A stretch of 64,000 bases of DNA from Thermoproteota archaeon. Lineage in GTDB: Archaea > Korarchaeota > Korarchaeia > Korarchaeales > Korarchaeaceae. Location: the NCBI GenBank assembly GCA_027492205.1, contig JAOZFN010000007.1, positions 303,112 through 367,111 on the forward strand, given 5' to 3'. This document shows positions 32,059 through 32,485 of the stretch, one piece after another. The number at the start of each line of letters is the position of its first letter. Positions within the stretch are counted from its first letter, which is position 1. Position numbers and translations under genes: made by a program. Under the pieces are notes generated by a model. That model searched no databases. It was given only the letters and a program-made list of their open reading frames with translations, and was not told the DNA's origin.

Positions 32059-32144
32059 AGACCCCTTGAGGGTGGGAGAGCGATCCATTCCTCAGTTGCC
32101 CGAGGTGAGATCGCCTCCGCCTTTCGGCGGAGTTGCCCTCCCGA
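32059..32144 (-). ncRNA. Structured small RNA, copy B
   Basis: Minus-strand TCGGGAGGGCAACTCCGCCGAAAGGCGGAGGCGATC...GATCGCTCTCCCACCCTCAAGGGGTCTC; TTTAAATA at 32163-32170 upstream. Confidence 0.65.
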
Positions 32145-32485
32145 GCCACTTCCCGGCCCGGGTATTTAAACTAGGGGGCGCCGTCGCACGCGCGCGGAGG
32201 GCGGCCCGCGGGCCGGAGGGACATCGGTCTCGCCCTCCACTTCCGTTCGCTGGACCGATAGGTCTTCCACTCGTCTCGGGAGGATCGTTCACTTGTGGTC
32301 GCTGACCATAATGCGGCGGTCGCCGACCTTGAGACGCGTAAGGGCGTCCGTCGGAGGGATGAGAGGCGCCGCGCGCGTGCCGAGAGAGGTATAAAATGGC
32401 ACGCGCCGCGAATGAGTAAGCTGTTGTTCCTTCGGTCTTCTCGGACGGTTAAACCTGGGGAGAGGGCTCACGGCTCCTCGATCCT

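Follow-up and report, generated by a model that had tools for sequence, protein, structure and literature searches.

A 519-bp intergenic gap (31967 to 32485) in the window, the whole stretch of 64,000 nucleotides of DNA from a heat-loving korarchaeon that was analysed, raises the question of whether the folded element on its minus strand is a gene for a small RNA, and if so, what such an RNA might do. We consider it very probable that this element, called copy B below, is a stand-alone structured RNA gene. We also lean towards a fuller reading, by which copy B and a paralogue are TATA-driven genes for structured RNAs of about 86 nt that may be protein-bound and act in trans.

The intergenic locus and its predicted transcript

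The gap is bordered by the stop of a plus-strand gene for a YdjM-like membrane protein (31406-31966) and by a minus-strand gene for a radical-SAM protein (32486-33439). An earlier reading of this DNA from its letters alone (the sequence-only reading) had described a gap of about 520 bp without a convincing coding sequence, which was borne out, and the minus-strand sequence that it quoted is exact, at 32144 to 32055. Judging by the spacing of the TATA box and by the 3' hairpin, copy B is predicted to be transcribed on the minus strand from 32142 to about 32057, giving an RNA of ~86 nt; transcription would start at or beside the first helix (P1) and end past the 3' hairpin. Its paralogue, copy A, lies 3.6 kb away in the same orientation (28552 to about 28467, minus strand, within a matching stretch at 28554 to 28465).

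The TATA box of copy B, TTTAAATA, can be read directly from the minus strand at 32163..32170, 20 nt upstream of P1, and copy A has the same box 22 nt upstream of its own P1 (28575..28582, minus strand). Measured on the plus strand, GGTGGGAG (32071) and the TATA sequence TATTTAAA (32163) are 92 nt apart in copy B, and the corresponding distance in copy A is 94 nt (28481 to 28575), both exactly as the sequence-only reading had it. A third locus, that of the B15_G15 relative introduced below, carries a TATA-like box too, 22 nt upstream of P1, so that at three loci a candidate archaeal promoter lies at the correct distance, 20-22 nt before P1.

A blastn search of the source genome (1.94 Mb in 17 contigs) found copies A and B only. 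Both have orthologues at the same sites in Aegir_M25_B147, another species of the genus, and these four sequences were used to build a covariance model. Searching the phylum with this model gave one further sequence, in the Guaymas genome B15_G15, which belongs to another korarchaeal genus (E 7.6e-7); only about half of its bases are common with copy B. The B15_G15 copy is also intergenic, and its neighbours, read from their translations as genes for a SagB-like nitroreductase and a KaiC-like ATPase, differ from those at the A and B loci; the downstream gene starts 77 nt past the RNA, beyond a U-rich stretch.

Copy B is both intergenic and untranslated, as would be expected of an archaeal intergenic small RNA. 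A 113-aa frame does overlap it, and translation in a conserved frame had been named as one observation that would speak against an RNA gene; a 1-nt insertion in the Aegir_M25_B147 orthologue, placed in the P3 region, shifts this frame.

Several other features lie close to the two copies. A second conserved structured element (31976-32069) lies tail-to-tail with copy B. It is 99% identical to Aegir_M25_B147 over 95 nt, versus about 95% in the neighbouring coding DNA; GGGGUCUCG/CGAGACCCC form its closing pairing, which overlaps the 3' hairpin of copy B, and on either strand it folds into a long hairpin interrupted by two one-sided bulges. This element was found only in the source genus, gave no Rfam match and lacks an obvious dedicated promoter; it could represent either the 3' end of the YdjM mRNA or an extension of the copy B transcript. 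The gap also holds a plus-strand TATA-like box, GGTATAAAATGG (32389-32400), within a block of roughly 180 bp that Aegir_M25_B147 lacks. Copy A adjoins a stand-alone gene for a LigD_N-type 3'-phosphoesterase (28692-29075), with homologues in 11 of 29 korarchaeal genomes; the RNA lies beside the gene only within the source genus.

Fold and covariation of the RNA

The predicted RNA consists of a three-way junction followed by a 3' hairpin (all positions on the minus strand). P1 is formed by GGGAG (32138..32142) pairing with CUCCC (32074..32078), with the consensus GGGNG/CNCCC, and is joined to P2 by the junction strand J12, GGCAAC (32132..32137), which reads GGYAAC in all five aligned sequences. 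P2 is a 6-bp hairpin, UCCGCC-GAAA-GGCGGA (32116..32131), whose loop is GAAA in copy B and B15_G15 and CGCAA in copy A. The third branch is an arm of two helices (32080..32114), P3 (GCGAUCU/GGAUCGC) and P4 (CCUCGG-GCAA-CUGAGG), which is paired in each copy despite the divergence between the copies. The 3' hairpin (32057..32073, ACCC/GGGG) has three pairs and is followed by the pyrimidine tail UCUCG, making it a putative terminator; in B15_G15 it is followed by a short U-run, UCUUUU.

Folded by itself, copy B adopts the three-way junction that had been described (-49.2 kcal/mol, z -4.2), with one of 200 shuffled sequences folding equally well. The best fold of copy A with the 3' hairpin included is rearranged (z -3.1). 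With the 3' hairpin left out, copies A and B, their two orthologues and the B15_G15 relative all form the three-way junction at 37 C. At 75 C four of these five sequences still do so, and the copy B orthologue of Aegir_M25_B147 partly opens P3. At 37 C, the predicted strand folds 5.9-10.4 kcal/mol better than its complement in each of the five sequences.

Covariation is the strongest evidence that this predicted structure is real. In an alignment of the five sequences from three genomes, which was fitted to the model and is thereby favourable to the structure, 100% of cells are paired under one structure, a figure that falls to 38-59% when the pairing partners are slid. In 6 pairs both bases are changed, versus 1.6 expected from shuffles, and none of 500 shuffles scored as high. 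All compensatory changes come from the single diverged relative, B15_G15, where P1 has one (A-U to C-G), P2 one (C-G to U-A), P3 three and the 3' hairpin one. Across the five sequences, 14 of the 24 pairs are invariant. Independently of the alignment, the free minimum-energy fold of the B15_G15 relative is the same junction. Structure-breaking substitutions in orthologues, which the sequence-only reading had proposed as a refuting observation, are absent and compensatory changes are found in their place; together with the shifted frame, these changes support its central claim of a structured noncoding small RNA with its own (predicted) transcription. At the level of sequence comparison, the conserved three-way junction, its strand, the promoter spacing and the noncoding nature of the element can be regarded as shown.

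Conservation is unevenly distributed over the RNA. The core (P1, J12 and P2) is 93% identical between copies A and B and 85% between copy B and B15_G15, versus 57% and 13%, respectively, for the P3/P4 arm; between orthologues, the arm is 94% (copy A) and 89% (copy B) identical. Two details that had been given functional weight lie partly in this arm, and neither survives in relatives. The motif GGGCAAC does occur twice in copy A and twice in copy B, as had been counted, but the second occurrence, at the P4 loop, is GGACAAC in the Aegir_M25_B147 orthologue of copy A and is replaced by unrelated sequence in B15_G15. Likewise, the GCAA loop of P4 is present in both copies, but is ACAA in the orthologue of copy A and a GUAAA pentaloop in B15_G15, which leaves the second GGGCAAC unconserved; the conserved GGYAAC corresponds to the first occurrence only, in J12.

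Distribution and comparison with known RNAs

With an improved model, we found nothing better than chance in the other 26 korarchaeal genomes or in the other archaea among 398 genomes searched, and a 116-genome search and a 28-genome phylum search added nothing; with several incomplete genomes among those searched, and with stricter filters in the large searches, this absence is not proof. Searching the neighbourhoods of LigD_N- and YdjM-like genes in other Korarchaeota with filters off gave nothing above chance either. Weak model matches in four genomes (18-26 bits) were at chance level, and most had several broken pairs or looked coding. We also scanned 100 genomes for the pattern GGGAGGGCAACTCC with one mismatch allowed; beyond the source genome and Aegir_M25_B147, the exact matches, which fell in four genomes, came without the rest of the RNA. 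The family has so far been seen in two genera of Korarchaeota only.

Searches of the whole window and both loci against Rfam 15, at the gathering cut-off and at E 10, gave nothing credible for the RNA, and no family exceeded its covariance-model cut-off there. Elsewhere in the window, Rfam gave long tRNA matches at 1590-1690 and 58193-58296; ARAGORN reported a shorter tRNA at the former and missed the latter, and both are probably intron-containing archaeal tRNAs.

The order of GGGCAAC, a hairpin and GGCGA recalls the J1.1/4-P4-J4/2 segment of the hepatitis delta virus (HDV) ribozyme. No double pseudoknot can be built, as the upstream P1/P2/P3 strands are missing; unlike in HDV-like ribozymes, the bases that follow P2 are variable and form part of P3, and there is no Rfam hit. 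A resemblance to the SRP Alu domain was considered and dropped.

The closest parallels are archaeal intergenic small RNAs, of which many are known and targets are known for few (PMC5867862). Among them, sRNA154 and sRNA162 of Methanosarcina are, like copy B, stand-alone intergenic RNA genes with a lineage-restricted distribution, and sRNA154 has been described as folding stably, with two loops (PMC5867862). Unlike these two, the korarchaeal RNA is known from sequence alone and forms a three-way junction with a near-invariant core, present in two copies; no sequence relation to them was found, given the lack of an Rfam match. A search of the literature found no prior description of structured small RNAs specific to Korarchaeota. 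The RNA gene looks real, apparently undescribed and lineage-restricted, and would be a new family among the archaeal intergenic small RNAs.

Alternative explanations and a possible role

A three-way junction that is followed by a hairpin and a pyrimidine tail could also be a cis-acting leader, that is, a riboswitch or attenuator whose terminator, the 3' hairpin, is governed by an alternative pairing of a 5' GAGGG with CCCUC. This pairing is possible in copies A and B, and the rearranged best fold of full-length copy A fits such a switch, but the pairing is lost in B15_G15, where the second strand reads CCUUU. One hairpin weakly resembles the c-di-GMP-I-GGC riboswitch (RF03167; E 0.074); the likeness is limited to a CAAC-hairpin-GAAA-GGCG stretch covering 24 of 80 model positions and scores 18.6 bits, far under the cut-off of 59, with the remaining aptamer missing. 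No full aptamer of this kind was found upstream of a gene, and copy B has no same-direction gene after it, its downstream neighbour being the convergent YdjM-like gene. Neighbouring genes are also unrelated among the loci; as no downstream gene is common to them, a trans-acting RNA is likelier than a cis leader, which we regard as improbable.

A divergent guide RNA for rRNA or tRNA modification (H/ACA or C/D), or another housekeeping RNA, is improbable too. The RNA is indeed small, stable and stand-alone, as such archaeal RNAs are, and in B15_G15 the P3 and P4 helices are separated by a two-sided internal loop that could pass as a guide pocket; copy A, however, has almost no internal loop there. 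By inspection, none of the five sequences has a kink-turn, a 3' ACA at guide distance or C/D boxes, and the Rfam search at E 10 gave no snoRNA above chance. A normal 5S rRNA is present elsewhere in the genome, and an RNA that is missing from most relatives would be unexpected in a housekeeping role.

Two paralogous copies close together in one orientation, and a B15_G15 copy at a different locus, could also suggest a mobile or selfish repeat (a short interspersed element) with its own promoter, and the sequence-only reading had proposed a test for mobility. We found the two copies in orthologous positions in the sister species rather than multiple copies at variable sites, and viral contigs, plasmids and phages had no match to the RNA. 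The similarity between copies A and B extends about as far as the TATA box on one side and the 3' hairpin on the other; the two share nothing clear past the RNA and its TATA box, and therefore show no sign of recent transposition. Mobility is a very improbable explanation. Least credible is a DNA-level palindrome or chance fold: GC-rich intergenic DNA readily folds and the z-scores of single sequences reach only -3 to -4, but compensatory pairs across genera, G-U pairs, a consistent strand preference and conserved promoter spacing all speak against it.

We return to the reading of copy B as a stand-alone RNA that acts in trans. A core that stays constant beside an arm that has diverged suggests a partner shared by the core, most simply a protein, with the arm left free to diverge. 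In mechanistic terms, the near-constant P1-GGYAAC-P2(GAAA) core would probably be the binding site of a putative shared protein partner, while the P3/P4 arm would either direct each RNA to a target of its own or simply be a stabilising spacer, and the RNA would act as a regulatory ribonucleoprotein RNA rather than as a cis leader. We infer the protein-binding and trans-acting steps from the pattern of conservation, and offer this mechanism, a protein-bound trans regulator with a constant core and a variable arm, as a tentative one.

A bolder reading is that the family represents a new class of archaeal ribonucleoprotein RNA, in which a dedicated protein binds the P1-GGYAAC-P2 core and a replaceable P3/P4 arm specifies the target. 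We think this unlikely; if it were true, paralogues A and B would serve different targets. Until expression or a partner is established, the interest of the finding is moderate. That the core is constant and the arm has diverged nonetheless leads to a specific prediction, that of a shared protein partner, and in Korarchaeota, a deep archaeal lineage, an RNA family with covariation, a promoter and two paralogues is a concrete experimental target.
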